Below, one piece after another: positions 31,302 through 64,000 of a DNA stretch of 64,000 nucleotides (position 1 is its first letter; every line of letters begins with the position of its first letter). The notes below the pieces were generated by a model, which was given only the letters and a program-made list of their open reading frames with translations, was not told the DNA's origin and searched no databases. The stretch covers positions 1-64,000 of the forward strand of contig NZ_CAMLIG010000007.1 of the NCBI RefSeq assembly GCF_946480185.1. Reading direction: 5' to 3'. Origin of the DNA: an uncultured Pedobacter sp. GTDB lineage: Bacteria; Bacteroidota; Bacteroidia; Sphingobacteriales; Sphingobacteriaceae. A program made the position numbers and the translations under genes.

Positions 31302-32594
31302 ATGATTCGATCCAACAAAATCAACTTTTTTTTACGCCTAGCATTTATCTTGATTATCTGTTTGGCATTTAAAGATTACGGAAACAATATCAGTGTATTT
31401 AAAGCAGATGCTGATAATGCTAACCTGAAACTGCCTAAGGGTTTTGGCGCCGCAGTTGTTGCTAATAAAGCGGGCAGAGCAAGACATATTGCAATAACTA
31501 AAAATGGAAGCTTCTATGTTAAAACCCAGAATTTAGTTAACGGAAAGGGGATTTTATATTATACTGACGAGAATAAGGATGGTAAATATGAGCTGGCATC
31601 ATCTTTTGGAAATTATACTGGGACTGGCATTACCATTAAAAATGGGTATCTATATGCTTCGTCAGATTTGGAAGTTTTTAGGTATAAACTCAATGATAAA
31701 GATGAAGTTATTGATACCGCCAAAGCAGAAAGAATTATTTATGGCCTAAAGGCGGGCAGGCAGCATCAAACAAAATCTATTGTTTTAGATGATGATAATA
31801 ATATTTATGTAAACATTGGTGCTTACTCTAACTCATGCCAGATTAGAGATAGAGGACTAGAATCTAAGGGTATTGAAAATTGCCCTATTCTTGATTCGGC
31901 AGGTGGTATATGGCAGTTTAAGGCCAACCGACTGAACCAAACTTATAAAGATGGTGTTAGATATGCTACCGGTTTAAGAAATGTAATGGGGCTTGATTGG
32001 AACAGCACCAACCAAACGCTTTATGTTACCCAACATGGCAGAGACAATTTAAATTCCTCATGGCCAAAGTTATACACCACAAAAGAGTCTGCCGAATTAC
32101 CTGCAGAAACAATGTATATGATTAAAAAAGGTGATAATGCCGGCTGGCCTTACATTTATTACGATCCTTTCTTGAAAAAGAAGATGATAGCTCCGGAGTA
32201 TGGCGGTGATGGTAAAACCGAAAGTAAAGGAAATTATATCGATCCGATTATTGATTTCCCTGCTCACATGGCACCTAATGCATTGCTTTTTTATACTGGC
32301 AACATGTTTCCCGAAAGATACAAAAATGGTGCTTTTATTGCCTTCCATGGTTCGTGGAACAGGGCTCCAGAAAAACAGGCAGGTTATTTTGTAGTATTTG
32401 TTCCGTTTAAAGATGGTAAGCCCTCAGGTAAATGGGAAGTTTTTGCAGATAATTTCTCTGGTAAGGCTGAAATTGACTCCCCGAGGGAAGCTGAACACCG
32501 ACCTTGTGGTTTAGCGCAAGCACCGGATGGCTCTTTGTTTGTAACAGATGACTCTAAAGGAACCATTTACAGAATAGGGTATCATAAAAACTAA
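31302..32594 (+). CDS. PQQ-type glucose/sorbosone dehydrogenase family protein
   Basis: The 430-aa exported protein has a hydrophobic N-terminus (FLRLAFILIICLAF) and the six-bladed beta-propeller signature of the GSDH family: GLRNVMGLDWNSTNQTLYVTQHG, GDNAGWPY, FHGSWNRAP, and ADGSLFVTDD-like APDGSLFVTDD near the end. Such enzymes oxidise aldose sugars in the periplasm with PQQ, passing electrons to a cytochrome. The next gene, 7 bp downstream, encodes a cytochrome c, a fitting acceptor. Its substrate is unknown; its position at the edge of a fucose-directed locus makes a sugar released there plausible. Confidence 0.85.
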   Translation: MIRSNKINFFLRLAFILIICLAFKDYGNNISVFKADADNANLKLPKGFGAAVVANKAGRARHIAITKNGSFYVKTQNLVNGKGILYYTDENKDGKYELASSFGNYTGTGITIKNGYLYASSDLEVFRYKLNDKDEVIDTAKAERIIYGLKAGRQHQTKSIVLDDDNNIYVNIGAYSNSCQIRDRGLESKGIENCPILDSAGGIWQFKANRLNQTYKDGVRYATGLRNVMGLDWNSTNQTLYVTQHGRDNLNSSWPKLYTTKESAELPAETMYMIKKGDNAGWPYIYYDPFLKKKMIAPEYGGDGKTESKGNYIDPIIDFPAHMAPNALLFYTGNMFPERYKNGAFIAFHGSWNRAPEKQAGYFVVFVPFKDGKPSGKWEVFADNFSGKAEIDSPREAEHRPCGLAQAPDGSLFVTDDSKGTIYRIGYHKN

Positions 32595-32601
32595 AAACAA
32601 C

Positions 32602-33030
32602 ATGAAAAAAACAGCATTTATTTGCTTAATTATATTAGCATCTGCTTTTGCATTAAAAGCACAAACTACCAAAAAGCCCGTTGCCAAGCCTTCTGTTAAT
32701 CCAAAATTAGAGAAAGGGAAAGCTGCCTATATGCAATATTGTATAGCTTGCCACCAGGCAGACGGAGGAGGAGTAATGGGCTTAAATCCTCCATTAATTA
32801 AAACTACTTATGTTTTAGGCGACCCGAAGAGGATGATTAATATTGTTTTAAAAGGATTTAACCAGGAAATTGAAATAGATGGTGATACTTATGCAAACCC
32901 TATGCCTGCACTTAACTCTTTAACTGACCAGCAGGTGGCCGATATATTAAGCTATGTAAGAAACAGCTTTGGCAATAAAGCCAGTATGATCACACCGAGC
33001 CAGGTAAAAGCGGTTAGGGCTGCTAAATAA
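32602..33030 (+). CDS. Secreted c-type cytochrome
   Basis: The 142-aa protein has a signal peptide (IILASAFALKAQ) and one haem-binding CIACH motif (Cys47, Cys50, His51), with a likely axial Met in NPMPAL. It is a class I cytochrome c. It is co-transcribed with the PQQ-type dehydrogenase and probably takes its electrons. Confidence 0.92.
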   Translation: MKKTAFICLIILASAFALKAQTTKKPVAKPSVNPKLEKGKAAYMQYCIACHQADGGGVMGLNPPLIKTTYVLGDPKRMINIVLKGFNQEIEIDGDTYANPMPALNSLTDQQVADILSYVRNSFGNKASMITPSQVKAVRAAK

Positions 33031-33070
33031 TAAGAAGGCAATTGAAAAAAGATTCAATTGCCTTCTTATT
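33029..33070. terminator. Bidirectional terminator after cytochrome c
   Basis: A perfect 18-bp stem (33029-33046 with 33053-33070) closes a 6-nt loop between the convergent cytochrome gene and the ConA/Ig-like gene. The minus-strand operon starting at 40977 also ends here. Confidence 0.9.
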
Positions 33071-33090
33071 ACTTTTTAATACTTAAAGGA

Positions 33091-34072
33091 TTAATTAACA
33101 ATCAATTCTCTTAATTCGCTTGCCGGATAGTATTGAGTATTACCTTCATGAAAAGCTAAAATTAGAGTTTTGCCTGACCCAACAATATGTACTTTCCCAT
33201 CTGCTGTGATGGTTGCTACAGACAAATCGGAACTGCGGTAAATCAAGGGTAAACCAGCATTGGATTTTGCGCCGGCATCAAAATCAGCGTCGCCTACCTT
33301 TTTTGCCTCTAATGAAGGATAATTAATGATAATTAATGGTTTGTGTAGCCTTTTCATATATTTTTCCGCCTTTATCTTTAAAATGCTGTACGTTTCTCCA
33401 TACTACTTTAGGGCTTTCATGTCCATCTTTAACTGTACCGTAAACCCCGTATTTATGATAGTTCCCGTTAAAATTGTTAATTGCCTTTTCACTATCCTCA
33501 TGCTCGAAAACCTTCTTATCGTTTAAATAAACTATAAATTTATTGCCCACATCTTCCTGCAAGTGGATTACATTTACTTTCACTTCCTTACCATAAACGT
33601 TATCCATCAATTTTACTCCGCTCACATTTCCACAATTTACCGTTATGGTTCCGTTATTTGCATGGAAACCTCTCATCATAAACTGAGTAGCACCTTCTTC
33701 ACTTCCCCATATCTGCATCAGACACTCATCATCAAGAGGCGGATAAATAGTTACATAACCTTCAAACTGCCGGGCTCCAAACTCGTATTCATTAATCAGT
33801 CTTATTTCTGCCCGGTTTGATTTTTTATCGTACAACTGAAAGGTTTCTGTTTTATCTTTTTCATTATAGGTGTAACTGGCGTTTTTACCTACGGAGGTTT
33901 GTAGTTCTTGGTATGGAGTCCAGTCGTACATCATGTGTTTGCCTATCTCGTTACACAGATGTATTTTCTTTTTTGGCTGATAGCTTTCCCAGGTGATACG
34001 ATCTACGGGTTGTTGCGCAACGAGCTGCGATGATAAGATCACTAAACAGATTATTAAATTTAATTTTATCAT
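33091..34072 (-). pseudogene. Secreted ConA-like protein with Ig-like C-terminus, frameshifted by a 10-bp duplication
   Basis: Two frames make one protein. Frame one (34072 to 33323) has a signal peptide (ICLVILSSQLVAQQ) and a jelly-roll domain resembling the PL7/ConA-like superfamily: SNRAEIRLINEYEFGARQFEG, then CLMQIWGSEEGATQF, then NGNYHKYGVYGT. Frame two (to 33091) encodes a bacterial Ig-like domain (KVGDADFDAGAKSNAGLPL, then SVATITADGKVHIVGSGKT). The break falls on a perfect tandem copy of a 10-bp unit at 33318-33337. Removing one copy restores QTINYPSLEAKKVGDADF, the usual join between such domains. The catalytic QIH-type His of PL7 is Trp here. It is the last gene of the six-gene PUL operon. 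Confidence 0.7.
33318..33337. repeat. Perfect 10-bp tandem duplication (2 copies)
   Basis: The unit GATAATTAAT occurs twice in a row inside the ConA/Ig-like coding region and shifts the frame by one. It is a classic slipped-strand product, and loss of one copy would restore the gene. Confidence 0.95.
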
Positions 34073-34185
34073 AACGAAAAATTGAAGGGTTTTGGTTCCG
34101 AGTTATAGGTGTTTACAAGTCCTATGTTGTAAGCGTTAACCAACTTTAAGGGTTTGTGAATTGCTTATGAAGCAGTTTTGCCACA

Positions 34186-35736
34186 CTATATCTTAATTTT
34201 AAACGAATACATTATTTGCTGTTCTTTTGGTATTTTGTTGAGGAATTTTTCGGGTACGGTGATCACTAATCCGGTTTTCTTTTTATATCTCCATTTTAAA
34301 GGCTCGTTTATACCAAGTAAATAAATTTGGGAGTCTTCTAGGGGCTGTACTGTTTTTAGTTGAAGTTGTTTTTTAGGCCAGTTAAAACTGTGCACATAAA
34401 CAATTTTATTGTCTTTTGAGCGTGTAAATCTAATACCATCCCCCTCATGCCAGTTTTCTCCGTCTCTAGCTCTTGTTCCGTAAATGGCTTCTCCGTTGGT
34501 TTTTAACCATCTGCCTGTTTGTCTTAACTGGGCTTCTGCGGTTGGGCTAAATTTACCCTCACCATCCGGCCCTATCCCTACCATAAAATTCCCTCCTTTT
34601 GCCGCACAATCTACAATATTTTGCACCACCCATTTCGCACCTTTATGTTGTACCGGGTCATCCTCGTAAGAAAAGGTACGTCCTAACGGATAAATAACAA
34701 ACCAGGGTGCTTTTGTATTCTCTTTATCCCCCGGAACAAATCCTTCAGGTGTATAATAATCGCCGTAGTTTCCTATGCCTCTGGCTCTAAACATCACATT
34801 AGGTTGGATTTTTCTCAACGCTATCATGGTTTCTCTTAACTTAGGCCATACTGCTGGCCCAAACCACATATCCAGACAAATCATATCTATCTTACCGTAA
34901 TTGGTTAAAAGCTCTTCTAATTGGGTTCGGTGTCTGGTCATCATCCTTTCCACTTCAGCCGGAGTGGGATCAGGAGCCATAATTGGCCCATTACTGCCAT
35001 AATGTGATTCTATTGCGCCTTCGGGTTGGTAATCCTTACCCCGTACTGCTAATGTTGCTGACGAAGGCACTTGTAGTGGATGCCAAACATAGGGACGGAA
35101 ATCGGCATCAAACCAATCCGGGTTTGAGTAATAAAGGTCAATCTTAATGTCCCTCTTTCTAGCCGCATCTGTTAATTCTTTAACAATATCGCGTTTGAAA
35201 GGTGTTTCCATAACGCTATAAGCAACATCAGTATCTTCTATCACTGGCCCGCCGGGAGCTAAATAATTTATGCGCTTTTTTACCCTGGTTTTAGTATCAA
35301 ACAAAGAAAAACCCTCATGGTGTTTTGTAGTAAAAGCAAACATCTTGATGCCACTTTCTTTAAAAAAGTTCATCCAGCTATCTGCATTAAAATCTTTGGG
35401 ATTCCAGGTTTTGTACAGATCTACGTATTTTTGCTTGTCTGCATTACTAAGCTTTAGAAATGGCCAGGATTCTTTCTCTTGCTTAATCATAGAATACAGG
35501 CCCCAATGTATTCTCACGCCAAACTTAATGTCGTTAAAATCTTCATAAGCCTGAGGGGACGCCCAGGTGTACTCTGGCACAGGTTCTTCTTCTATATAAC
35601 CGCTGGTATAGTTGTATTGCCTATCACTTTTAGGCAGATGATGCTTTACATTTTCATCTTTGGTTTTGACTTGTGAAAATGTTTTTAGAAATAAAACTAA
35701 CGTAAAACCTAGTGCTAAAAAATGCGACTTTTTCAT
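34186..35736 (-). CDS. GH29 alpha-L-fucosidase (first copy)
   Basis: The 516-aa protein has a signal peptide (ALGFTLVLFLKTFSQ) and the GH29 barrel: FGVRIHWGLYSM, FAFTTKHHEGFSLFD, and DMICLDMWFGP with likely nucleophile Asp289. A C-terminal beta-sandwich follows (GIRFTRSKDNKIVYVHSFNWP). It removes L-fucose from glycan ends, probably in the periplasm. It is more like the canonical HHEGF type than the other two GH29 proteins here. It sits 113 bp upstream of the frameshifted ConA gene and 110 bp after the beta-propeller gene. Confidence 0.9.
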   Translation of the reverse strand: MKKSHFLALGFTLVLFLKTFSQVKTKDENVKHHLPKSDRQYNYTSGYIEEEPVPEYTWASPQAYEDFNDIKFGVRIHWGLYSMIKQEKESWPFLKLSNADKQKYVDLYKTWNPKDFNADSWMNFFKESGIKMFAFTTKHHEGFSLFDTKTRVKKRINYLAPGGPVIEDTDVAYSVMETPFKRDIVKELTDAARKRDIKIDLYYSNPDWFDADFRPYVWHPLQVPSSATLAVRGKDYQPEGAIESHYGSNGPIMAPDPTPAEVERMMTRHRTQLEELLTNYGKIDMICLDMWFGPAVWPKLRETMIALRKIQPNVMFRARGIGNYGDYYTPEGFVPGDKENTKAPWFVIYPLGRTFSYEDDPVQHKGAKWVVQNIVDCAAKGGNFMVGIGPDGEGKFSPTAEAQLRQTGRWLKTNGEAIYGTRARDGENWHEGDGIRFTRSKDNKIVYVHSFNWPKKQLQLKTVQPLEDSQIYLLGINEPLKWRYKKKTGLVITVPEKFLNKIPKEQQIMYSFKIKI

Positions 35737-35846
35737 AGATGTGGTTATTTATCGTAAAAACTTATTGTGAACTGGACATGGTACTTGAGCTAATTTAAAT
35801 TGCTGGTTCCATAATAAAGTTAATTTATGAGGCTTTAGATAGCTAA

Positions 35847-36833
35847 CTATTTAATATTTCCGAATCTTAGGTCTTCGGGCTTTTTACTGGTATTTAAGAA
35901 TTGAAAAATGGTTGAAGGTCCCAGATTATTAGGAGCAATCCACTCTTTTAAAGCCCATACGACCTTTTTATCTGGTGTGATTTCCAAAAACTGAACAGGC
36001 AAATTTACTGGTGCAATGCTGTACTTTTTCCATTGGTTGTACCAATTATTGATTAAGGTATTTCCATTAGGAAGGCGGTAAGCCATTTGTAGTCCATAAA
36101 GACTATAATCGGCCAGGTCACTAGGTTTAAACTCCCAAATTATTTCGCCATTTCTGCTAATCTCACGGATGTAATTTTTGTTACAAACTGCCAGTAGATT
36201 TCCGTTAGGAAGTTCTTCCACGGACCAAGGCGAAGGAAAATCGACGCTAAATAAGATTTTACCATTATAATCATACTCTATAATTTTATTTAAATCCATG
36301 TGAGCCACCAGATAGGTGCCTCTATCAGTTAGTCTGGCATGCCTGAACTGCGTATGTGCCCTGGAGGTATCGCCCACCTGTAACGCAAATTCTCTTACAT
36401 ATTTTCCTGTTTTAATATTTACTACCCTTACTTTTGGTTTACTAGAGTTTTCTATAAAAATCACATGGTTGTTGCCAATAGGTTGCGCTGTGTGTATTTC
36501 AGTTCCGGCCGGGCAGTTTAAGTTCCAAATTACTTTTTTATCCTTATTTATCACCGTTAAGCCATGTTGATGCGCAAATACAACATTACCGTTAGACATT
36601 AAAACTGCATCACTTATTTCTCCTCTTCCGGTTGAGTCTAAATATGACCAAGCTATTTTTCCGTCTTTAACGATATACATATTGCGGTATTTTTGCTCAC
36701 CTGCATAAAAAAAATCGTATTGCATCAAACCTTTTCCGGGTAAGGGCGATGGAGATGTTGGTTTAACGATAACTTCTTGCCCAACCGCAAAAAAACCTTT
36801 TAAAATAATAATTACGCCTAGTAAATATTTCAT
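35847..36833 (-). CDS. Secreted beta-propeller protein (PQQ/arylsulfotransferase-like fold)
   Basis: Repeated blades are visible (VKDGKIAWSYLDSTGRGEISDA, INKDKKVIWNLNCPAGTEIHTA, EISRNGEIIWEFKPSDL, ITPDKKVVWALKEW). I chose ATG 36833 (MKYLLGVIIILKGFFAVGQ, a signal peptide; 328 aa), two bases after the preceding stop, rather than the longer frame that overlaps it. No catalytic residues can be named. The tight placement between a beta-propeller hydrolase and a fucosidase implies a role in the same glycan pathway, as a lyase-like or binding protein. Confidence 0.75.
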   Translation of the reverse strand: MKYLLGVIIILKGFFAVGQEVIVKPTSPSPLPGKGLMQYDFFYAGEQKYRNMYIVKDGKIAWSYLDSTGRGEISDAVLMSNGNVVFAHQHGLTVINKDKKVIWNLNCPAGTEIHTAQPIGNNHVIFIENSSKPKVRVVNIKTGKYVREFALQVGDTSRAHTQFRHARLTDRGTYLVAHMDLNKIIEYDYNGKILFSVDFPSPWSVEELPNGNLLAVCNKNYIREISRNGEIIWEFKPSDLADYSLYGLQMAYRLPNGNTLINNWYNQWKKYSIAPVNLPVQFLEITPDKKVVWALKEWIAPNNLGPSTIFQFLNTSKKPEDLRFGNIK

Positions 36834-36834
36834 G

Positions 36835-37863
36835 TTACTTAGACCGCTTACTAGACGATGACTTACCTGGAACATAATCTTTAACAGGATGTGCTACAAT
36901 AACGCCTTTATCATCAGGGGTCATACAGGCTAAAAAGTAAGCTTTTACCACACCATTCTCGGTATATACAAATGGTCGCTCAACCCTTTTAAATTTCTCT
37001 TTTGAACCATCATCATAAGTTATTTCATTGGTATTTATGGGTTCTTTGCTAACAAGCAGGTAGTTGATTCCATCCTTTGAATAATATTGCACACCCGCTT
37101 TATTTCTTCCGGTTGCTACACCGCCAAAGTCGGTACAGATAACGTTGTACTGGTTATCTGCCCACCAGATGGTTGGGTCCTCAAGTTCGTAGTTGTTTGG
37201 AAGAAGATTTACCTTATCCGGGGCTAAATTGGTATACGGACCTTTATAAGTAGGTGCTTCTGCGGCTCTTGCTGTTCTAACCTGCTTGTCGCCTATTTTT
37301 ACTGATAGACGACCGAATACGTAAACACTGCCATCAGGCCTAACCAATGGAGCGGGATTACTGAAACTGATCATTTTCTCTGACCTAGTCCAGGGACCAG
37401 TAATTTTGTCTGATTCGGCATAGCCCGTTTCATTTGCAGAAGATATGTAGAACAATAGAAATTTATTTCCTGCTTTTACTATTTTTGGGTTATGTACACG
37501 ATCATTATCCCATTGACCCTCTCTTTTTTCTAAAACTACTTCGGCAAACTCATAGGGTCCCAAAAGATTTTTTGAGGTAGCTCTTATGCAGAACGATTTA
37601 GATGTCCAGCTAGCCATACCACCCTCTGCAGGCCAGGCAGATGCAAACATATGATAGGTATCACCAACTTTAATTACAGATGGGCACCATAAAAAGTACT
37701 GACTTAATTTTAAGCCACCGTTTTTCTTTGCGGGTTGAATGAAGTTTTTAATACTCTCGAAAGGAGCCACTTCCTGTGCTTTTATTTGATGTGTGAGTAA
37801 AATAAAACAAATGAATAAGGAGGCTTTTAAAAATTTATTTAGCGATGGATTATAGTTTAACAT
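36835..37863 (-). CDS. Five-bladed beta-propeller glycoside hydrolase (GH43/GH117-like)
   Basis: The 342-aa secreted protein (signal HQIKAQ) shows blade motifs of the GH43/GH117/GH130 superfamily: FLWCPSVIKVGDTYHMFASAWP, RVHNPKIVKAGNKFLLFYISS, APLVRPDGSVYVFGR, and YELEDPTIWWADNQYNVI, where the Glu-Asp probably contributes catalytic acid residues. The exact family and sugar cannot be assigned by eye. It lies 6 bp after the GH28 gene. Confidence 0.78.
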   Translation of the reverse strand: MLNYNPSLNKFLKASLFICFILLTHQIKAQEVAPFESIKNFIQPAKKNGGLKLSQYFLWCPSVIKVGDTYHMFASAWPAEGGMASWTSKSFCIRATSKNLLGPYEFAEVVLEKREGQWDNDRVHNPKIVKAGNKFLLFYISSANETGYAESDKITGPWTRSEKMISFSNPAPLVRPDGSVYVFGRLSVKIGDKQVRTARAAEAPTYKGPYTNLAPDKVNLLPNNYELEDPTIWWADNQYNVICTDFGGVATGRNKAGVQYYSKDGINYLLVSKEPINTNEITYDDGSKEKFKRVERPFVYTENGVVKAYFLACMTPDDKGVIVAHPVKDYVPGKSSSSKRSK

Positions 37864-37869
37864 ACTTGA

Positions 37870-39420
37870 TTATTTTATAGTTTCTAATTCTTTTTTTATT
37901 CCTTTGATTTTGTTATTTGCCACACTAATCTTAGCATCAGTATTACCCTCTACTCTTACAAGTGCTTTTGCCTGACCTTCGCTCCTAATATTAGAGATGG
38001 ATGCACTTTCTACTTCCTCTAACCTGATAACTGCTTCCATATCCCTAAAAGTTGGCAAATCAGCGTTGGTGATTTTTATGTCTTTACCATCTTCAACGAT
38101 TATTGCAGGGCGCATATCTGAGCTATCCAAGGTAAACTTGATACGGTTTAATGTTAAGCCCGCCACATGTCTGGCCCATATCCCGTATGCAGGTATAGTT
38201 GGTCCAAATGTGCTTACTTCGGGATATTTATTTTCAGCTTCTGGAACCTGGTGCCGGGAATTTGCAACTGTTCCTCGGCCTGCTAACGTGATTTCTACAT
38301 TGTCAAGTGTTAAATTTGTAATAGGATGGTTAGGGACTCCCGTAATCAAAACCCCGGTTGGAGGATTAAGTTGTGCCGGAAAAGCAGCTTTGGCCTTTAC
38401 ATTACGGATGGTGACGTTCTCTATAACACCGGTTGCTTGTTGGGTATCGGTATCTTTTCTAAAAACATTTAATCTGGAACCTAAACGTACCATAATGGGC
38501 GTACGTACATTGTTCATTACGATATTTGATATATCAATATTCCTGATCTGGGCACCATCTACACTATGTATTTTGATCCCTCCGTTTCGGGTATCATAAA
38601 TATAGATGTAGGATATCTTAATATTTTCGAAAGGCGCCATTGACTCGGTTCCAAACTTTATGCCTGCATGGTTACTCGTTATCCTTATATCTTTAATGGT
38701 GATATTTTTACATGCCATTTTACTCCAGGTTGTTTTAAAACAAATGGCATCATCACCTGTATCAATATCGCAATTGCTTATATTAACATCCTGAGAACAA
38801 TCTATATCAAAACCATCGTTATTTCCCAGTCCTTTACTTTTTAAGGTCACTCCTGCTATATCAACACCTTGGCAGGCAAAGAAATGAGCAGTCCATGCTG
38901 TTGAATTTAAAAGCTTGATGCCGTCTAAAACGACTTTTTTACTGCGTACAAATCTTACTAAGAAAGGTCTTTTACCCCTACCGCCAGAGGTCAGCACATC
39001 TTTCCCTCTTCCATTAATAGTGCCTTCGCCAGTTATGCCAACATTTGTTGCATCTACGGCTCCTACAAAACAGTATCCCATTAACGCTCCGTTACCGGTT
39101 TTAAAAGCATCCACTATTTGATAATCGGCAATGTTTTTACTTCCTAAAAGTTCTGCTTTTTCGGAAAGTTGTAAAGTAATGTTGTCTTTTAACAAAATAG
39201 TGCCGGATACGTACTGACCTGCGGGGAAGTATAAAATTGCGCCTCCTTCTTTACTGTATTTATCAATTAACCTTTGTATGGCATTGGTGTTGACAACGTT
39301 GGTATCTGATACTACGCCATATTTAGTTACATCGATAGTTTTATCGGCCTTTGCTATCTTTGGTGTTGCTGATAATAAAATAAGTACAAAGCTTATTATC
39401 TGATAAATTTTCTTGATCAT
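37870..39420 (-). CDS. GH28-family right-handed beta-helix glycosidase
   Basis: The 516-aa secreted protein begins with a Pectate_lyase_3-like segment (IDVTKYGVVSDTNVVNTNAIQRL) and continues as a GH28 beta-helix. Motifs are GNNDGFDID (NTD-like, near residue 200), DTGDDAICFKTT, SNHAGIKFGTES and NGGIKIH. The three acidic residues and the His are kept, but the family's R-I-K motif reads G-I-K. In polygalacturonases that Arg contacts the substrate carboxylate, so a non-galacturonan substrate is likely. It lies 12 bp after a GH29 gene. Confidence 0.85.
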   Translation of the reverse strand: MIKKIYQIISFVLILLSATPKIAKADKTIDVTKYGVVSDTNVVNTNAIQRLIDKYSKEGGAILYFPAGQYVSGTILLKDNITLQLSEKAELLGSKNIADYQIVDAFKTGNGALMGYCFVGAVDATNVGITGEGTINGRGKDVLTSGGRGKRPFLVRFVRSKKVVLDGIKLLNSTAWTAHFFACQGVDIAGVTLKSKGLGNNDGFDIDCSQDVNISNCDIDTGDDAICFKTTWSKMACKNITIKDIRITSNHAGIKFGTESMAPFENIKISYIYIYDTRNGGIKIHSVDGAQIRNIDISNIVMNNVRTPIMVRLGSRLNVFRKDTDTQQATGVIENVTIRNVKAKAAFPAQLNPPTGVLITGVPNHPITNLTLDNVEITLAGRGTVANSRHQVPEAENKYPEVSTFGPTIPAYGIWARHVAGLTLNRIKFTLDSSDMRPAIIVEDGKDIKITNADLPTFRDMEAVIRLEEVESASISNIRSEGQAKALVRVEGNTDAKISVANNKIKGIKKELETIK

Positions 39421-42815: not shown

Positions 42816-42816
42816 A

Positions 42817-52107: not shown

Positions 52108-52122
52108 ATCATTTACAAACAA

Positions 52123-56207: not shown

Positions 56208-56915
56208 TTATTGTTTCATTTTACCATAAGATGCGAGTATCAGCTTTGTTGGAGGTGCTAAATACTGATCCATTACATGTATATAACCATTGGTTGCCCT
56301 AAGGTTACTAGTACGAGGGCGCAAATTCGCAATTCTCGAATTTGGCCAGTTATTTAAAAATAAGTACGGATTCCTGCTTAAATCAAGATACATATTAACC
56401 TTTGAAGTGTCAGTGGTTCCATAAGTATCAAACCAGGTTGGTGTAGAGTTAAGGTTCTCATACGAATAAATGCCTTTTACAGTATGATATCTCAAAAACT
56501 CTTTTACCTGTTCAACAGGATATTGCTCCCATGCAGATGCTGGGATAGTAGCAGGTAATGGTACTGGCGCATTTGGATCATACGCGGGGTTAGGAATTGG
56601 ATTTTTCACAAAGTAAGAGTTACCATTGGTAGATTCTTTAAGCGCATTATTAGTAGGTAGAAAGTATGTTGAATTCTGTTGAGTATATAAATCTTCAAGC
56701 TTAGTGTAATTAATCGCCTCGATTAACGAAGAGAATAAGTCAGGTCTTGATTTTATAAATTCAAGGGCACTCATATTGATGCGGTTATCTAATAAACCGG
56801 GCTCAAAATCATAGGGCTTTTGCAATTTGTAACCTGCTACTTTTTCACAGCCACTAAATATTACTATTGAAAGGCAGAGTGCGCAGATGAGGCTACTTAT
56901 AAATGATCTTTTCAT
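56208..56915 (-). CDS. FAS1 (fasciclin) domain lipoprotein
   Basis: The 235-aa protein has a lipobox (VIFSGCEK) and one FAS1 domain: LFSSLIEAINYTKLEDLY, TYFLPTNNALKES (H1 box), LRYHTVKGIYSYENL and TNGYIHVMDQYLAP (H2-like). FAS1 domains mediate adhesion and ligand binding. Its place directly after susD, in the SusE/F position, suggests that it binds the target glycan at the surface. It lies 17 bp after susD. Confidence 0.88.
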   Translation of the reverse strand: MKRSFISSLICALCLSIVIFSGCEKVAGYKLQKPYDFEPGLLDNRINMSALEFIKSRPDLFSSLIEAINYTKLEDLYTQQNSTYFLPTNNALKESTNGNSYFVKNPIPNPAYDPNAPVPLPATIPASAWEQYPVEQVKEFLRYHTVKGIYSYENLNSTPTWFDTYGTTDTSKVNMYLDLSRNPYLFLNNWPNSRIANLRPRTSNLRATNGYIHVMDQYLAPPTKLILASYGKMKQ

Positions 56916-56932: not shown

Positions 56933-58441
56933 TTATTCTGAATAAGGAGGATTTTGTTTTCCAACCAGTAATGGATTCGATTCAAACACTTTAGTATTTA
57001 ATGGCCACAGAATTTTACGAAGATCTCCAAAACCTTCCTGAGGGAGATTAAGTGCTGCCTGCCGACGTTTTAAAGCAGGATCCATATGCCTTAGCACTCT
57101 ACCAGTTCTGATTAAATCAAACCAACGTTTTCCTTCACCGAAAAGTTCTAATTGCCGTTCAAGCAGAATAAGTGTTTCTACTTTTTCTGTTGAAGGGTTT
57201 GCGCCCAACTCTGATTCAGCAGTAACATTGTAGCCCACTCTCCTTCTGATCTGATTTACGATGGTATATGCTTCGGGCTTACGGTTTTGCTGATTAAGAG
57301 CTTCTGCCCGCATCAGCATCACATCAGCAAAACGAATGATTGGTATACGAATATCGCACTGTGAATTACTATAATATTTAAAGGTGCTTTTGGCGGGGTC
57401 GTACTCATTAAACTTTCCGGTTTTTTCTATATACTGATAATTTAAATATCCGATAGGAAGTCTCCCACCGTTCGTATATAAATACGTGGTATCAATATAT
57501 TGCCATAGTCTAGAATCTTGTTTATTGCGATCAATCAGCGCGTAATAAATCGAATCCTGCATTTTGTAATTTGTAGTGTTGCTACCAGATGCCAGTAGTG
57601 AACAAGAACCAGCGCCTGTACCGTCCTGAATGTAGGACCAATACATGTTAAACATCGTCTCTGTGGAACTTTCTGGCGTTACAAATATGTTTTTGAAGTC
57701 TGTTGTGTTAGTTACCAAAGAATATGAGTTAAGTGCAATAATATCATCTGATGTTTTAATCGCATTATCATATTCGTTAAACCACATTTCAACCTCCATT
57801 TTCAATGCCATTGCTGAACCTTTGTTGATGTAGTAAACATCAGCACTCGGCTGTAACAGTCCAACGGCGGTAGTTAAATCAGACATGATCTGGGTTTTAA
57901 CTGATTGCACAGGTGACCGCTCATAAAATTGTTTTTCGTTAGGATTACCTTCGTACGGTTCTGTTATTAAAGGAACATCCCCCCACACTCTAATAGCATA
58001 AAAATACATTAATGCTCGCATTGCGTAAGCCTGTCCTAAAAAGCGGTTTAAAGTCAGCGGATCAACCTGCTGAACATTTGGATAATATTTTATTGCAGTG
58101 TTACATCGTGTTATCACTTTGTAAAGGTCGGTCCAATCAGTTTGAGCCATATCGGAAGTTAGGCCATTATTTAACATCTTGCTCTGTACTGTACCGGTAC
58201 CCTCCTGCTCTAAGTTATCGGATCGCACTTCTCCCCACTCTAAAAAACGTGATGAAAGTGTTTTCTGCATTCCGTCATAAATACCTGCATTCCAGCTTGT
58301 GATATCGTCCGCGTTTTGGAAAAAATTTTCTTTTGCCAGTGAAGATGTTGGATTTAATTCCAGAAATTTATTACATCCTGCAAATATTGTTACCAACAAT
58401 GGTAAACAAATAAAGTGTATGGTTATTTTTTTCATTACCAT
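56933..58441 (-). CDS. susD: SusD/RagB-family glycan-binding lipoprotein
   Basis: The 502-aa protein has a lipobox (VTIFAGCNK), the N-terminal KFLELNPTSSL motif, TPR-like helices (WTDLYKVITRCNTAIKYYPNV) and the C-terminal RagB/SusD pattern (FADVMLMRAEALNQQNR, LLERQLELFGEGKRWFDLIRTGR). It closes the SusC barrel and captures oligosaccharides. It lies 4 bp after susC. The Met at 58435 is an alternative start. Confidence 0.95.
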   Translation of the reverse strand: MVMKKITIHFICLPLLVTIFAGCNKFLELNPTSSLAKENFFQNADDITSWNAGIYDGMQKTLSSRFLEWGEVRSDNLEQEGTGTVQSKMLNNGLTSDMAQTDWTDLYKVITRCNTAIKYYPNVQQVDPLTLNRFLGQAYAMRALMYFYAIRVWGDVPLITEPYEGNPNEKQFYERSPVQSVKTQIMSDLTTAVGLLQPSADVYYINKGSAMALKMEVEMWFNEYDNAIKTSDDIIALNSYSLVTNTTDFKNIFVTPESSTETMFNMYWSYIQDGTGAGSCSLLASGSNTTNYKMQDSIYYALIDRNKQDSRLWQYIDTTYLYTNGGRLPIGYLNYQYIEKTGKFNEYDPAKSTFKYYSNSQCDIRIPIIRFADVMLMRAEALNQQNRKPEAYTIVNQIRRRVGYNVTAESELGANPSTEKVETLILLERQLELFGEGKRWFDLIRTGRVLRHMDPALKRRQAALNLPQEGFGDLRKILWPLNTKVFESNPLLVGKQNPPYSE

Positions 58442-58445: not shown

Positions 58446-61400
58446 TTAAAAATTTATGTTTAATCCCAAACCAAACTCTCTGTTTCTAGGAAATTTACCA
58501 CTGTCTTGACCTGGTGTAAGTACACCACCTCCAAATTCTGGATCAAACCCGGTGTAGTTAGTCCATGTAAGTAAATTCGTTCCATAAAGGTAGGCGGTCA
58601 TCCCTGCCATATATAGTTTTTTAGCCACCTTATTGTTCAGGCGATAGGCTAGTCTTGCATTTCTTAACCTAATGAAAGAACCATCCTCAAGAAAATAGCT
58701 GTTCAACTCTCTTGAATTATCTGTAACAGATCTAAAAGCGATAGGAACATCTGTGATTTGCCCCTGATATTTCCATGCATTACGAATATCATATGGCCAT
58801 GGAGTTGCATTAGTTGAGCTATATTGAGTTAAATCTCTCCTTTGCTTGTTGTATAAAAGGTTACCGAAACTTCCGTACACATTGACAAATAGTGAGAAAT
58901 TTTTGTACGAAAAAGTATTTTGCCAGGCACCAAACCATTTAGCTACTGCATTGCCTAAAACCTGCCTATCTGAATCATCTATTTGATTATTGTAAACTCC
59001 ATCGCTGTTAGGCAGATTCTGCCAAATGACGTCGCCTCCTTTTGATACATTTCCTTGTGCATACATTTGGTAAACTGGTTTGGTGGTAGGATCCCATCCA
59101 TAGTTTGTTCCGTCAGGATATTGATAGCCTAAAAGAACAGGAGCTCCGGATTTCTCAAACACTACGTTATTATTTGCATCTCGTTGAAATACGGGTAAAA
59201 GTCTGACTTTGTAATCTGGTGTCCAAGCGTTGGAGACGTCATATTCATATACTCCGAGGTTTCTAAAGCCATACCATTGTCCAACTGGACGTCCAACTCC
59301 AACATACCATTTAGAATCTTGAACGTAATCCGCTTTTGCAAGCGCTGTAATGGTGTTTTTATTCCTAGAGTAGTTTACGGAAGTTTGCCAGCTAAATTTT
59401 GAGTTCCTTACTGGGTACCCTGTTAAAGTAACCTCTAGTCCTTTATTTTGAATTGCACCCAAATTAATTCTGATATCGTCATATCCCAGTTCGGAAGGCA
59501 TTTTGGCAGAGTAAAGAAGCTTATCAGTAGATTTTATATAATAATCTATAACTGCAGATAAACGACCCTTGTACATAGAAAGGTCAAAACCAAAATCACT
59601 GGATGTGCTTGTTTCCCAACTTAAACTGGGGTTACCAAATCTGGTATTCTGCACTACTCCACCAATATTATTGTAGGTGTAATCTCCTCCTAATATGAGC
59701 CGGTTTACAGTTTCAAAATCCCCAATACGCTCATTTCCTGTTTTTCCCCAGCTAACCCTAAACTTAGCATCGTCTACCTGCGCATTTCTAGCCCAGCCCA
59801 TAAATTTTTCTTCGGATATTCGCCATGCTGATTGCAAGGCCGGAAAAGTACCCCACCGATCCTGAGTAAACCTTGAAGACCCGTCTCGACGAAGTGTACC
59901 GCCTAAAATATATTTTCCTTTGTAACTATAATTTAAGCGGGTAAAAAAACTAATCATTCTGTTTGCTGTTGCATCCGTTGCCGTTGCGCCTTTGTCTAAA
60001 TCTTGCAAAGAGTTCAATGTTTCCACACTTTCCGTCACAAAACGGCTACCTTCTATCCCGATTGAATTTCGCTGATCCATTTCAGCACTAGTTCCTAAAA
60101 GAGCGGTAATAGAATGTTCTTTCTTTATTGTTTTGTTATAGGTAAAATATGCATCACCCATGAAATATCGCCTAAAGGTATTATTATCTCCGGCACTCCC
60201 TATTGGAGGATTTCCTGAATTAAGCACTTTCGAGCTAAAGGTTTCGCTTCTATTAAAATCTAAATCTGCAGTAATACTCGTCTGGAATTTAAAGTTTGGA
60301 TTGAAACTATACTCGAGATTTTGATAGATAGTTCCTTCGTAAGCTGTTCTGTAATCATGTGCAAAGCGAGCTTGAGCAAGGGGATTCCTTACGCCGGCAA
60401 TAATGTATGCATAGCTACCGTCAGGATAAAACAAAGGAAATTCAGGAGGTCTTATTATAGAGCCCGCTATTACTGCCCCCTCGTTTACTGCGTTGGCTTT
60501 CCGATAACCAAAGTTTAGCCTCGAGTTAAGCGTTAATTTAGGCGCCACATTGTACTTGATATTCAAACGGCCTGTTAATCTTTTAGCCCAGCTTTCGATA
60601 ACTATCCCATCCTCTTGTTGAAAGCCTAAGCTTGCCAGATAGTTAAAATCTTTAGTCGCACCACTTGCCTGCAGATTGAGCTGATCTCTATTACCCCTTT
60701 GGGTAATTAGATCGAGATAATCGTTACTAGCATTTGTACCTATGTATAAAGAATCTGCTCCCTCCGCAGGGTCGATTATTTTAGCTCTATTGTTGAAAAT
60801 CTTCAACCGCTCAATCCTATTTGCTTGAGATATCTTATTAGCCAAAGCATAAGTGCTTCGAAGATAACTGAAATCAATTTTAGGCTTACCTACAACACCA
60901 CTTTTGGTAGTTATTATAATAACTCCATTGGCTGAGCGTGAACCGTAAATAGCCGCCGATGCCGCATCTTTTAATATGTCGATTGATTTAACGTCATTTG
61001 GGTTTATGGTGGTAATATCATCCTGAGGCACCCCGTCAACGATATATAGAGGTGCAACCCCACCTTCAAATGTTGATGCCCCTCGCACCCTAATATCTGC
61101 TGACTCGCCCGGTGCGCCGGAGTTACTAATGATTTGGACTCCAGGAGCCTCTCCCTGGATAGCATCAAAAATGTTTACAGGTGCCCTTTGCTCAATATCT
61201 TTCTCTGTGATGGTGTTAATGGCAGCCGCAACGTCTCTTTTTGCTTGGGTTCCATAACCTACAACCACTACCTCATCTAATTTGCTTATGTCTTCACTTA
61301 AAACAATATTAAAATTTGTTTTATTCCCAACCACAACTTCCTGAGGAGTAAATCCTATGTATTTGAAAACAAGAGTTGAATTTACAGCAACTTTTAGTTT

Positions 61401-61622
61401 AAATTCTCCGTTTAGATTTGTAACGGTTCCTAAAGTGCCTCCTTTAACATTTACTGCAACCCCCGGCAAAAGAACACCGGTTTCGTCTTTAACAGTTCCG
61501 GAGATCCCCACAATTTGCCCGTAGCCTCTATTAAACATTAAGGCAGTGATTAATAACGTAAGCATCAGCCTTTGCTTGGAAAACAGTTTTGGAAAAAAAT
61601 CTAGTAGTACTCGTTTTTTCAT
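58446..61622 (-). CDS. susC: SusC/RagA-family TonB-dependent transporter
   Basis: The 1058-aa protein has a signal peptide and a carboxypeptidase-D-like domain (GISGTVKDETGVLLPGVAVNVKG). The TonB box region is DEVVVVGYGTQAKRDV, and the plug contains PLYIVDGVPQDDITTINP and ASAAIYGSRSANGVIIITTKSG. The 22-strand barrel ends in FGLGLNINF. No N-terminal STN domain is visible, so it is not of the ECF-sigma signalling type. It imports oligosaccharides across the outer membrane with SusD. Confidence 0.97.
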   Translation of the reverse strand: MKKRVLLDFFPKLFSKQRLMLTLLITALMFNRGYGQIVGISGTVKDETGVLLPGVAVNVKGGTLGTVTNLNGEFKLKVAVNSTLVFKYIGFTPQEVVVGNKTNFNIVLSEDISKLDEVVVVGYGTQAKRDVAAAINTITEKDIEQRAPVNIFDAIQGEAPGVQIISNSGAPGESADIRVRGASTFEGGVAPLYIVDGVPQDDITTINPNDVKSIDILKDAASAAIYGSRSANGVIIITTKSGVVGKPKIDFSYLRSTYALANKISQANRIERLKIFNNRAKIIDPAEGADSLYIGTNASNDYLDLITQRGNRDQLNLQASGATKDFNYLASLGFQQEDGIVIESWAKRLTGRLNIKYNVAPKLTLNSRLNFGYRKANAVNEGAVIAGSIIRPPEFPLFYPDGSYAYIIAGVRNPLAQARFAHDYRTAYEGTIYQNLEYSFNPNFKFQTSITADLDFNRSETFSSKVLNSGNPPIGSAGDNNTFRRYFMGDAYFTYNKTIKKEHSITALLGTSAEMDQRNSIGIEGSRFVTESVETLNSLQDLDKGATATDATANRMISFFTRLNYSYKGKYILGGTLRRDGSSRFTQDRWGTFPALQSAWRISEEKFMGWARNAQVDDAKFRVSWGKTGNERIGDFETVNRLILGGDYTYNNIGGVVQNTRFGNPSLSWETSTSSDFGFDLSMYKGRLSAVIDYYIKSTDKLLYSAKMPSELGYDDIRINLGAIQNKGLEVTLTGYPVRNSKFSWQTSVNYSRNKNTITALAKADYVQDSKWYVGVGRPVGQWYGFRNLGVYEYDVSNAWTPDYKVRLLPVFQRDANNNVVFEKSGAPVLLGYQYPDGTNYGWDPTTKPVYQMYAQGNVSKGGDVIWQNLPNSDGVYNNQIDDSDRQVLGNAVAKWFGAWQNTFSYKNFSLFVNVYGSFGNLLYNKQRRDLTQYSSTNATPWPYDIRNAWKYQGQITDVPIAFRSVTDNSRELNSYFLEDGSFIRLRNARLAYRLNNKVAKKLYMAGMTAYLYGTNLLTWTNYTGFDPEFGGGVLTPGQDSGKFPRNREFGLGLNINF

Positions 61623-62115
61623 TTTGCTCGTTTATAATTTAGTTAATTGATTACAGCTCCAATTACCATCGTTAAAAATCATAGTTTTCAATCAAGTTTG
61701 AACTGCTGTTAACAGATTTTGATACAACTAAAATTTAATTTACTCAGGTTTAAAGCAGATATTCAAACTCTTGGTTACCTATGTTGAATATCTCTATATT
61801 CAAATGTAATATGAATAAACTCCAAAAAATTGCGATAGATTAGCAAATGAATGCTTTACTTTAACAAGAAATAACCAAACAGAGATTTATTGCTTATATG
61901 AAGGCATAGTTTATTAAAAGCTGAAGAGTCTTACAATTGACTTTGAAGAAGCTTTAAGGGCTTTGGCTAAATCATCCATTAATTTAGTTCTTGGCTAAAT
62001 TAAATCAAGAGGGAGATCTTAAATTTAGATTTTATAAGAGTTGACTGAGTGTTACTGGTTATAAAAATGAGGCGATAGTTGCGACAATCAACAATTAACA
62101 GGTTTACTTTTGAAA
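61623..62115. other. Upstream region of susC
   Basis: This 493-bp spacer is upstream of susC and downstream of the second LacI gene. CTGTTAACAG at 61706-61715 and a TTCAA-TCAAGT-TTGAA inverted repeat near 61687-61702 are candidate operator elements. At about 61918-61998 the plus strand has a short open stretch (KLKSLTIDFEEALRALAKSS) that may be a gene remnant. No terminator was seen. Confidence 0.45.
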
Positions 62116-63147
62116 CTAAATATCTATTCGCATTTCAGAAGATTCTCTCACTATCAATTCGCAAGAAATTATTTCGGTTTTATGAAATTTCTTATCTTTT
62201 GCCTTTAAAATACTATTAAAATAAAGATTGGCGGCAGTTTTGCCAATTTCTCTGCTTTTTTGTTCTACAGAACTTAAGGACGGGGTAACATAATTTGTAA
62301 ATTCCTCGTTTTGGAACCCAATAACGCCTAATTGTTGAGGAACCTTTATGTTTAGCTCTTTTGCAGCTTGCAATACTCCTAAAGCGGCAGGGTCAGAAGC
62401 CGTAAAAAAAGCGTCGGGTCGGTTTCTCTGCGACAATAGTTTTAAAGCAATAGTTTTTGCTTCTTCTCTAGATATAGTCACATGCTTAATAAAATTTTCA
62501 TCCAAACTTATTCCTGTTTCACTTATCGCTTTAGCAAAACCTTTTTTCCGTTCACTGTAAACGGCTAAATGTTCCGGTCCGCCTATATAGGCGATATTTT
62601 TAAATCCCTGTTTAATTAAATGGCTAACCGCTTTATAGGAAGCTTCTTGATTATCGTTTTTAACGATAGAACTTACTATAGAATCATCAAAACGGTCAAA
62701 TTGTATTAAATGAATTTGGTTGTCAAGAATTTCCTTTAAATGCAAATTGGACATTGTTTCTTGCGATAGTGATATCATAATGCAATCAACGTTTTGCCTA
62801 ATTAATGTTTCAACTGCTTCTTGTTCTTTTGTAAAACTCTCTTCACTTTGGCAAATAATGATGTGATGCTTGTGCTTGTAGCAGATTTCTTCTACGCCTG
62901 CAATCACGTTAGCAAAAAAAATTTCACTTATTTTTGGGACAATAATTCCTATAATTTTAGATTTACCCTGTCTTAAATTGGCGGCAAAAGAGTTATGTTT
63001 ATAATTTAACTCGGTGGCCTTCTTTTTAACCAAATTTTTTACTTTCTCACTAACCACAGGATGATTGCTCAATGCCTTAGAAACATAAGAACCACTAATG
63101 CCAAGAGCCTTAGCTATATCATAAATTGTAACTCTTTTATTATTCAT
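62116..63147 (-). CDS. LacI-family transcriptional regulator (second)
   Basis: The 343-aa protein has the LacI DNA-binding domain (TIYDIAKALGISGSYVSKALSNHPVVSEKVK), hinge NYKHNSFAANLRQG and a sensor domain (GIIVPKISEIFFANVIAGVEEI, DAFFTASDPAALGVLQA). It lies between susC and the divergent fucose-dehydrogenase-like gene, so it is the best candidate to control both. Confidence 0.94.
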   Translation of the reverse strand: MNNKRVTIYDIAKALGISGSYVSKALSNHPVVSEKVKNLVKKKATELNYKHNSFAANLRQGKSKIIGIIVPKISEIFFANVIAGVEEICYKHKHHIIICQSEESFTKEQEAVETLIRQNVDCIMISLSQETMSNLHLKEILDNQIHLIQFDRFDDSIVSSIVKNDNQEASYKAVSHLIKQGFKNIAYIGGPEHLAVYSERKKGFAKAISETGISLDENFIKHVTISREEAKTIALKLLSQRNRPDAFFTASDPAALGVLQAAKELNIKVPQQLGVIGFQNEEFTNYVTPSLSSVEQKSREIGKTAANLYFNSILKAKDKKFHKTEIISCELIVRESSEMRIDI

Positions 63148-63596
63148 TATAAAAGTAAACAGACTTTTGGCAATATATAAAAAATCATCCTTGTCTCACA
63201 AAAACATAGCGTTTAACGCCTCAATCTTCTATTCATTCTATAAAGACATTATGCTTTTGTTAATATAAATGAATAGCAAATGAATGTAATTCATCTATAG
63301 CTCCTGTGTAAATTAAAATCCCTCACTGGGCCTAGAATTCTTTTATAGACTCAAGAAATCATCACAAATAAAATTTTTTATAAATATTTTGAATACCAAA
63401 TTTTATAAAAATCGGTCTTTACCTCACCTAGTGTGATAAAATAAAGAAAAACTCTTCTTAACGGAATAAAAAAATAATTTCAATTTTGAAATCGATTGAA
63501 AAAACTTTAATATTGAAAACCAATTTATAAGTCAAAATTTTTAAACGTAGTTTTCTATAATAGCGATTACCTATAAACGATCAAAATTTAACTCAG
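63148..63596. other. Divergent regulatory region (LacI / aldo-keto reductase)
   Basis: This 449-bp AT-rich spacer has no ORF. A 16-bp palindrome lies in its right half at 63477-63492. The words TTCAA/TTGAA recur near the susC promoter. Confidence 0.5.
63477..63492. promoter_or_regulatory. Candidate operator: ATTTCAA-TT-TTGAAAT
   Basis: This is a perfect 7-bp inverted repeat with a 2-bp centre, 104 bp upstream of the aldo/keto reductase ATG, in the spacer shared with the second LacI gene. Two or three similar half-sites lie nearby. AT-rich palindromes arise by chance, so the call is tentative. Confidence 0.35.
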
Positions 63597-64000
63597 ATGC
63601 AACCAGTAATACCTGAACTAAACAAACAACATGGAGCTGAAACTGCCTCGTCATTAAAGTATTCTAAATATAGATTCCCGAAAACCATAATGGGAACCAG
63701 TAGTTTAGGAAATTTATATCAGGCGCTAGATTTTGAGCAAAAACTGGCTATCGTAAAAGAAAGTATAAAAAACTCAAACGGGTTAGCTTTCTTCGATAGC
63801 GCCGGAAAATATGGGGCTGGCTTGGCCTTAGAGTCTTTAGGGAGATGCCTAAAACTACTAAAGGTTAACCAAAAAGACACCCTAATTAGTAATAAATTAG
63901 GTTGGATAAGAAAACCTTTAATAACAGATGAGCCTACCTTTGAGCCTGGAGTTTGGAAAGAACTAAAGTTTGACGCCTACCAAAACATCAGCTACCACGG
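63597..64000 (+). CDS. Aldo/keto reductase, L-fucose (D-threo-aldose) 1-dehydrogenase-like (3' end outside window)
   Basis: Reading from ATG 63597 gives 134 complete codons with no stop before the window end. The protein has the start of an aldo/keto reductase barrel: FPKTIMGTSSLGNLYQAL near residue 27 and NGLAFFDSAGKYGAGLALESLGRCL, with the catalytic Asp-Ser-Ala-Gly-x-Tyr arrangement. DTLISNKLGW follows. The GTSSLGNLY form is typical of the D-threo-aldose/L-fucose dehydrogenases that begin the fuconolactone pathway. The fucosidase neighbours support L-fucose as substrate. Only the N-terminal 40 percent is visible. Confidence 0.8.
   Translation, partial: MQPVIPELNKQHGAETASSLKYSKYRFPKTIMGTSSLGNLYQALDFEQKLAIVKESIKNSNGLAFFDSAGKYGAGLALESLGRCLKLLKVNQKDTLISNKLGWIRKPLITDEPTFEPGVWKELKFDAYQNISYH

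Follow-up and report, generated by a model that had tools for sequence, protein, structure and literature searches.

What does a Bacteroidota locus crowded with fucosidase-type enzymes take apart, and how is the sugar it frees put to use? The question is raised by a 64,000-nucleotide stretch of DNA from an uncultured Pedobacter sp. (contig NZ_CAMLIG010000007.1; hereafter the window), in which 22 ORFs between positions 31302 and 63998 were scanned with Pfam (E ≤ 0.001). Tandem SusC/SusD genes with CAZyme genes and regulators place the locus among the Bacteroidota PULs, and the data support a PUL rich in fucosidase-type enzymes. An earlier note made from the letters alone had listed three GH29 and two GH95 enzymes, GH27, GH28, a propeller hydrolase, a beta-helix protein and SusC/SusD, plus a LacI regulator and a dehydrogenase-like gene at the right edge; all were matched by Pfam, the propeller hydrolase as GH43-like and the edge gene as a partial aldo-keto reductase (AKR). 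An AraC gene and a second LacI gene lie alongside. The assignments of the enzyme families, SusC/SusD, the regulators and a GSDH-cytochrome pair, and the recurrence of that pair with the same CAZymes, come from homology and synteny.

Our preferred reading, held with moderate confidence, is that the glycan handled by this Sphingobacteriaceae PUL has a chain that contains uronate and is probably rhamnogalacturonan-like, capped with L-galacto-configured sugars (L-fucose, L-galactose or both), and that the caps, once removed, are used oxidatively. SusC/SusD and lipoproteins would capture the glycan, GH28, the GH43-like enzyme and the proteins that resemble lyases would cleave it, and the GH29, GH95 and GH27 enzymes would act in the periplasm to take off terminal sugars. 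Two entries, alone or together, would then oxidize the free sugar at C1. One is a PQQ-type dehydrogenase in the periplasm that hands its electrons to the cytochrome; the other is an AKR in the cytoplasm, after which relatives have a lactonase and later steps.

Table 1 Features of the locus, with window positions, strand and the matches on which each assignment is based.
Feature	Position	Strand	Evidence
PQQ-type sugar dehydrogenase (GSDH), AA12-like	31302..32594	+	Pfam GSDH 57.4 bits; TrAA12 36.9 bits
c-type cytochrome, adjoins GSDH	32602..33030	+	Pfam Cytochrom_C 46.2 bits; single CxxCH motif, CIACH
PL7-like jelly-roll protein, two frames	33091..34072	-	249-aa ORF 33323-34072 and 88-aa ORF 33091-33357; homologues P0121 and P0122 align to the two frames
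GH29 (GH29a)	34186..35736	-	Pfam 209 bits; orthologue 77-79% in four relatives
Propeller protein, Mala_s_1-like	35847..36875	-	Pfam 58.8 bits; orthologue 75-76% in 3/4 relatives
GH43-like five-bladed propeller hydrolase	36835..37863	-	Pfam 38.7 bits (cut-off 32.2); orthologue 84-87% in four relatives
GH28	37870..39420	-	Pfam 90.3 bits; nearest NCBIfam rhamnogalacturonidase BT4146 (NF049898), 228 bits, below cut-off 500
GH29 (GH29b)	39433..40977	-	Pfam 299 bits; orthologue 81% in G038 and G103
GH29 (GH29c)	41277..42815	+	Pfam 302 bits
DUF1080 / 3-keto-disaccharide hydrolase-like protein	42808..43521	+	Pfam 35.1 bits
Beta-helix protein, DUF4955-like	43799..45331	-	Pfam 24.0 bits, just below cut-off 25
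GH27	45350..46885	-	Pfam Melibiase_2 140 bits
GH95 (GH95a)	47051..49636	-	Pfam 574 bits; orthologue 70-71% in four relatives
GH95 (GH95b)	49633..52122	-	Pfam 618 bits; nearest solved structure alpha-L-galactosidase 4ufc
AraC-type regulator	52791..53672	+	Pfam 73 bits; orthologue (79-80%) heads arrays of four relatives
LacI-type regulator 1	53768..54781	-	Pfam; 64% to gene after SusC/D-fasciclin in L007
345-aa protein of SusC/D core, lipoprotein-like N-terminus	55160..56197	-	Without Pfam match
Fasciclin-domain protein of SusC/D core	56208..56915	-	Pfam 48.9 bits
SusD	56933..58441	-	Pfam 98 bits
SusC	58446..61622	-	TIGR04056 775 bits (cut-off 368)
LacI-type regulator 2, divergent from AKR	62116..63147	-	Pfam; 54% (L132) and 50% (L131) to LacI by AKR operons
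AKR, first 134 residues, interrupted by window end	63597..63998	+	Pfam 39.3 bits

The GSDH and its cytochrome went unnamed in the earlier note, although the interval it described begins at the GSDH. The solved sequences closest to the window GSDH are TrAA12 and CcPDH, and when its predicted structure (pLDDT 87.1) was searched with Foldseek the best four matches were TrAA12 entries and CcPDH (TM 0.68-0.71 by query). By sequence and in this model, a six-bladed quinoprotein fold, the protein is thus closest to the fungal AA12 enzymes. R61, H155, R226, H322 and H349 align with TrAA12 Arg57, His153, Arg220, His330 and His350, so that the PQQ-contact and catalytic residues of an AA12-like dehydrogenase are present in the alignment; four of these five pocket residues, along with N227 and D248, show no variation across 50 sequences, and R61 shows none across 32. 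The AA12 literature gives L-fucose as the preferred substrate of TrAA12, with very low turnover, and L-fucose and L-galactose as substrates of CcPDH. The window pair has the fold, PQQ-contact residues and cytochrome partner in common with these pyranose dehydrogenases, but the cytochrome is a separate gene rather than a domain as in CcPDH, identity in the structural match is ~19%, the source is bacterial rather than fungal, and both PQQ dependence and substrate are putative here. Teredinibacter turnerae proteins that likewise combine a bacterial GSDH with cytochrome c have been likened to AA12; as described in PMC12055684, they are single multidomain secreted proteins with CBMs, in contrast to the two adjoining genes in a PUL seen here.

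As the pair is oriented opposite to the neighboring PUL genes, it lies outside their transcript. That it nevertheless belongs to the locus is indicated by four relatives in which GSDH and cytochrome c head a single array carrying much of the same enzyme set behind them: two GH95 genes, beta-helix, GH28, GH43-like and GH29 genes and a divergent AraC gene (Pfam names were taken from G038 alone). Eleven window genes recur in a single G038 cluster at 58-86% identity, which argues that their grouping is not due to chance.

Is the pair, then, dedicated to fucose? The GSDH family as a whole is not fucose-specific, because it is found in many genomes (118 of 301 in the family) and because only 7 of 40 other GSDH regions hold GH29 or GH95 and none holds the window-type AKR. 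These 40 regions, some shorter than 20 kb, were picked down a list that passed over the four sister clusters, G165, the second hits of G210 and G180, G094, G053, G050, G231, G026, G022 and the lower rows except G301 and G070; the 20 control regions were other stretches, 0.2-2 Mb off, on some of the same contigs. SusC was found in 13 of the 40 GSDH regions versus 5 of the 20 controls. It is a serious, if somewhat less than even, possibility that GSDH and cytochrome act on another sugar, such as D-galactose or one that GH28 releases, or in general periplasmic respiration and are mere neighbors of the fucosidases. GH28 at ≥50% identity occurs in 11 of the 40 regions, more often than GH29/GH95 (1 of the 20 controls had a GH28, a weak 24% match), several regions lack any sugar-degrading gene of the comparison set, and the G038 array ends in D-galactonate route genes: a galactonate dehydratase (700 bits, cut-off 311), a DGOK kinase and a KDPG-type aldolase. 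Against this, in the AA12 sources activity on D-galactose was either little (5.7% for TrAA12) or not assayed and that on L-rhamnose was little, and besides the four genomes in which GSDH heads a fucosidase array there are four others in which it lies inside a fuconolactonase gene array, although those arrays lack the window-type AKR. GSDH was within 5 kb of a lactonase gene in at least 3 genomes versus 0.17 expected, and AKR lay equally close (≤5 kb) to a fuconolactonase-like gene in at least 15 versus 0.10 expected, counts based on the best 107 GSDH and best 100 lactonase places of longer lists and on 84 AKR places, with 5 Mb genomes assumed. In L245, an AKR-family gene of a different type follows the cytochrome.

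If GSDH does serve the caps, the pair may start oxidation outside the cytoplasm. A fuller version, which we put forward tentatively and consider rather unlikely, is a respiratory front end in which the AA12-like PQQ dehydrogenase would oxidize freed sugars in the periplasm and reduce the dedicated cytochrome c, the aldonate entering the cell beside or instead of the AKR route. The cofactor would have to be scavenged, since PqqE was found in 0 of 20 genomes; note that control genomes matched in 8 of 14 cases but none above the cut-off, and hence the search was not validated by any known PQQ maker. Absence of PqqC was dropped as evidence because its control was silent. PULs are usually described in terms of capture, hydrolysis and sugar import. 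If a PUL came with a PQQ-type dehydrogenase and a cytochrome of its own, glycan trimming would be tied straight to respiration, and a widespread family would gain a function. In the open-licence literature searched we found no description of a PQQ dehydrogenase acting on fucose within a Bacteroidota PUL (further background is in PMC6881810, PMC10063614 and PMC4332668).

The second entry was followed through relatives. The earlier note had favored the fuconate route over FucI/FucK, and the choice of oxidation over isomerization is supported by proxy: AKR genes occur in relatives with FucP, lactonase and Zn-dehydrogenase genes, and the FucI Pfam model matched 0 of 13 relatives versus 2 of 14 control genomes. 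The FAA hydrolase of the L-fucose pathway was present in 12 of the 13, and in all four relatives with sister arrays AKR and lactonase genes lie ≤2 kb apart elsewhere in the genome. A GH29 or GH95 homologue shares the same 15-20 kb with AKR in 9 of 20 regions. The non-phosphorylating L-fucose pathway, as given in PMC5507952, is partly recovered in relatives. The dehydrogenase at the window edge and the lactonase, FAA hydrolase, SDR and permease of relatives are shared with it, whereas the window holds only the start of the dehydrogenase, and relatives have an altronate-dehydratase-type gene beside the FAA hydrolase, with a putative role in the pathway.

Fuconate did not stand as the only fit. 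The AKR operons of L131 and L132, whose LacI genes resemble that of the window, contain a Zn-dehydrogenase and no dehydratase, and so L-galactose fits too (L132 has AKR, lactonase and Zn-dehydrogenase together; L131 has no lactonase locally). The key sugar could then be L-galactose rather than L-fucose: GH95, perhaps also GH29, would free it, AKR would oxidize it, and lactonase and Zn-dehydrogenase would lead to D-tagaturonate. We regard this as possible but doubtful. The L-galactose route of Phocaeicola vulgatus reportedly includes a lactonase step. In its favor, GH95b is nearest to 4ufc (906 bits, next-best 735), the solved relatives of the AKR are L-galactose dehydrogenases (7smi is one), and the P. 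vulgatus route (BVU_0219 and BVU_0222, from PMC12632266) is comparable, sharing AKR and Zn-dehydrogenase with the operons of relatives, a likeness by description and not by sequence. However, the lactonase of the relatives finds its closest match in L-fuconolactonase models (254.8 bits, below the cut-off of 400; PDB 4dlf) and lies beside the FAA hydrolase gene in several genomes, and their FucP scores above the cut-off as an L-fucose permease. Both window GH95 proteins have Thr instead of His at the C6 contact, but this was rejected as proof of alpha-L-galactosidase activity because PMC8245568 describes XacAfc95 as having the same Thr and yet being fucose-specific. A PUL-linked dehydrogenase of the PQQ type would also show how users of L-fucose and of L-galactose can be told apart among environmental Bacteroidota, something that family names do not reveal by themselves.

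As to the glycan, the earlier note had seen no sulfatase and considered sulfated fucoidan unlikely; with no match to a sulfatase family, the mark of fucoidan PULs, among the 22 ORFs, the fucoidan reading was rejected. Xyloglucan was also rejected, as neither an endo-xyloglucanase (GH74, GH5 or GH9) nor GH31 was found in these ORFs. Endo-xyloglucanases of GH5 and GH9 are features of xyloglucan PULs. GH74 and GH31 are given as such features in the literature. A pectic glycan is plausible. A bacterial or algal exopolysaccharide that contains fucose and uronate is an unlikely alternative target, because the best-matching model for the GH28 is a rhamnogalacturonidase and L226 has GH28, GH88, GH95 and GSDH side by side, even though the PL7-like fold and the weak BT3328 lyase-family match of the beta-helix protein (NF058554, 50.6 bits, cut-off 1100) suit uronate polymers generally and PL11, PL9, GH78, GH106 and pectin esterase were unmatched by Pfam in the 22 ORFs. 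Among Bacteroidota GH95 PULs, B. ovatus PUL-XylL (alpha-L-galactosidase BACOVA_03438; PMC4491172) shares SusC/SusD, debranching glycoside hydrolases and a GH95 close to GH95b, whereas the window has no xylanase family in its 22 ORFs and has GSDH, cytochrome c and AKR.

Several further genes were unnamed in the earlier note: the second LacI, AraC, the fasciclin protein, the lipoprotein-like 345-aa protein, the second propeller, the DUF1080 protein and the PL7-like protein, whose gene a frameshift splits in two. For this last protein the nearest fold is that of PL7 lyases; a profile search gave no solved sequence relative, and weak fold matches to neurotoxin and sialidase chains were set aside as generic jelly-roll. 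Base composition gave no signal of foreign origin (G+C 0.364 at 1-30600 versus 0.372 at 31302-63998). In the 35 of 80 loci that were listed, the fasciclin gene adjoins SusD in 32 and is followed by a homologue of the 345-aa protein in 15.

Every element that the earlier note named in this fucosidase-rich locus was recovered with Pfam, but its interpretation, a self-contained pathway coupling glycan trimming to oxidative fucose catabolism, was supported only in part. Two genes it did not mention open the interval, one for a dehydrogenase of the GSDH family and one for a c-type cytochrome, and this PUL-linked, putatively PQQ-type dehydrogenase with its cytochrome appears to be the more interesting part of the locus. 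We regard the whole as a variant of an already known kind of system, new in form.

Coordinates of features in the window
Feature	Positions	Strand
Locus under study	31302-64000	
rpoB to OmpA-like gene	7959-30528	
DinB + FGE-sulfatase gene	28338-29513	
GSDH	31302-32594	+
Cytochrome c	32602-33030	+
PL7-like gene	33091-34072	
GH29a	34186-35736	
GH28	37870-39420	
GH29b	39433-40977	
GH29c	41277-42815	
GH95a	47051-49636	
GH95b	49633-52122	
LacI1	53768-54781	
345 (345-aa lipoprotein-like protein)	55160-56197	
LacI2	62116-63147	
AKR (aldo-keto reductase start)	63597-63998	+

The solved sequence relatives of the window GSDH were the fungal AA12 enzymes TrAA12 and CcPDH; the profile search added a designed protein with a low score. 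The top four structure matches of its AlphaFold2 model (pLDDT 87.1) were three TrAA12 entries and CcPDH, with soluble glucose dehydrogenases ranking next. TrAA12 residues Arg57, His153, Arg220, His330, and His350, named in PMC6881810, align with GSDH R61, H155, R226, H322, and H349; the last four of these, together with N227 and D248, were invariant in 50 sequences and R61 in 32. The protein is probably an AA12-like PQQ-type sugar dehydrogenase. Against the PQQ assignment, PqqE was found in none of the 20 genomes searched, so that the bacteria would have to take up PQQ made elsewhere, unless the assignment itself is mistaken. L-fucose is the preferred substrate of TrAA12, although turned over slowly (PMC6881810). 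CcPDH oxidises L-fucose with a kcat of 56.4 per second and L-galactose with one of 56.1 per second, and is only slightly active toward L-rhamnose (PMC4332668).

The window comes from a Sphingobacteriaceae-type genome. Its RpoB was compared with 301 sampled genomes of the family to which G006 (Pedobacter glucosidilyticus UBA7667) belongs, and was 98% identical to those of G073, G059, and G132 and 95% to that of G006. GH28 orthologues (70-72% identity) led to a single sister array in each of four relatives, G006, G038, G103, and G127. There an AraC gene (79-80% to the window AraC) is transcribed divergently from a run of genes that starts with GSDH (64-66%) and cytochrome c (58-66%) and continues with GH95b (75-76%), GH95a (70-71%), a beta-helix protein (58-59%), GH28, a GH43-like gene (84-87%), and GH29a (77-79%). 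Only two of the relatives, G038 and G103, had a called GH29b orthologue (81%), and three of the four had the second propeller; some G127 genes appear split. GSDH and cytochrome c are therefore predicted members of the window's system. In the window the pair points toward the minus-strand PUL genes, and this opposite direction implies its own transcript.

Pfam names in the G038 array also include GH2, GH31, a GH88-type protein, rhaM, SDR, MFS, FucU, a KDPG-type aldolase, DGOK kinase, and a mandelate-racemase-type dehydratase that scores above cut-off as galactonate dehydratase. The array (L171-L172) terminates in a D-galactonate-type module behind a GSDH (galactonate dehydratase, DGOK kinase, KDPG-type aldolase, and an MFS resembling the galactonate transporter, below cut-off). 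Found in the window and not in the G038-type array are the fasciclin-type SusC/D core, GH27, GH29c, DUF1080, two LacI genes, and AKR.

G006 carries three modules at separate places. One is the SusC/D-fasciclin-345-LacI1 core, found at L007, and another the CAZyme array, which lies on contig C14. The third is an AKR operon (L132, contig C11) of FucP, AKR, lactonase, and Zn-dehydrogenase, and the LacI gene diverging from it shares 54% identity with LacI2. The window holds all three inside 33 kb, the third represented only by the first 134 residues of AKR. The SusC, SusD, fasciclin core is widespread in Bacteroidota. Among the matches listed, the fasciclin gene directly follows SusD in 32 of 35 loci across the phylum (L001-L034, L064), which carry GH95 in 11, GH29 in 11, and a beta-helix protein in 13.

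GSDH occurred in 118 of the 301 genomes (E<=1e-60), lactonase in 256 (E<=1e-70), and AKR in 77 (E<=1e-30). Distances were counted over the best 107 GSDH, best 100 lactonase, and 84 AKR places, with expectations assuming 5 Mb genomes. Fifteen genomes had AKR and lactonase no more than 5 kb apart, against an expectation of 0.10. For GSDH and lactonase the count was 3 genomes against 0.17, and in a fourth genome the two were 14 kb apart. One GSDH was near an AKR (G165); none of the best 100 lactonase places had both GSDH and AKR within 15 kb. Of the four GSDH-lactonase loci, L245, L273, and L275 have GSDH, cytochrome, a 327-residue gene, Zn-dehydrogenase, and lactonase, and in L245 the 327-residue gene encodes an AKR-family protein of another type than the window AKR; in L274, which combines GSDH with rhaM, lactonase, and Zn-dehydrogenase, no cytochrome was called as a gene of its own. 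Forty other GSDH regions, L245 included, contained cytochrome (33), GH28 of at least 50% identity (11), and GH29 or GH95 (7), whereas 20 control regions had none of these. GSDH therefore commonly accompanies sugar-degrading loci, and it is found beside GH28 more often than beside fucosidases. AKR is tied to fucosidases more closely than GSDH is: of 20 regions fetched around AKR, 9 had a homologue of GH29 or GH95. In other Pedobacter-type genomes, PULs L226, L223, L227, and L228 have SusC/D in one locus with GSDH, cytochrome c, GH28, and GH95a; besides a Pfam-named GH88, L226 encodes two proteins (688 and 280 aa) without Pfam match.

FucI was absent from all 13 relatives, the same model matching in two controls; FAA hydrolase was present in 12 and an altronate-dehydratase-type gene in all 13. 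In five fetched loci (L283-L287) the latter (~550 aa) shares an array with a FucP-like permease, rhaM, SDR, and FAA hydrolase, four also having lactonase and L287 a GH29-like gene inside. This gene may be the 6-deoxyaldonate dehydratase of the clade. The FucI absence and these arrays support oxidative 6-deoxyhexose use in the clade, although some copies may serve L-rhamnose instead. Three points count toward L-galactose over L-fucose: AKR resembles L-galactose dehydrogenases, GH95b is nearest to an alpha-L-galactosidase, and both AKR operons with matching LacI carry Zn-dehydrogenase. The GH95 threonine was not decisive as a discriminator.

For GH28 the closest model was that of a rhamnogalacturonidase, with a score under the cut-off. 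GH88 occurs with GH28, GH95, and GSDH in L226, the G038 GH88-type gene scored 34.4 bits, and lyase-like folds are found among window proteins. From GH28, the GH88 context, and these folds we infer a uronate chain that carries L-fucose or L-galactose as its terminal sugar; one candidate would be flax-type RG-I.

The PL7-like gene is broken by a frameshift (a real mutation or an assembly error), and two homologues match it in two frames, P0121 (313 aa, 99%) and P0122 (Pedobacter puniceum, 80%). Upstream of the locus, one gene combines DinB and FGE-sulfatase domains, which we take to be the layout of EgtB-type enzymes and therefore no evidence for sulfatase maturation. The distance between rpoB and the OmpA-like gene is 17.9 kb in the window and a similar 16.9 kb in G132. 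Where the window locus starts, four relatives have a ~1100-aa gene or two other genes, and thus the locus lies at a variable site.
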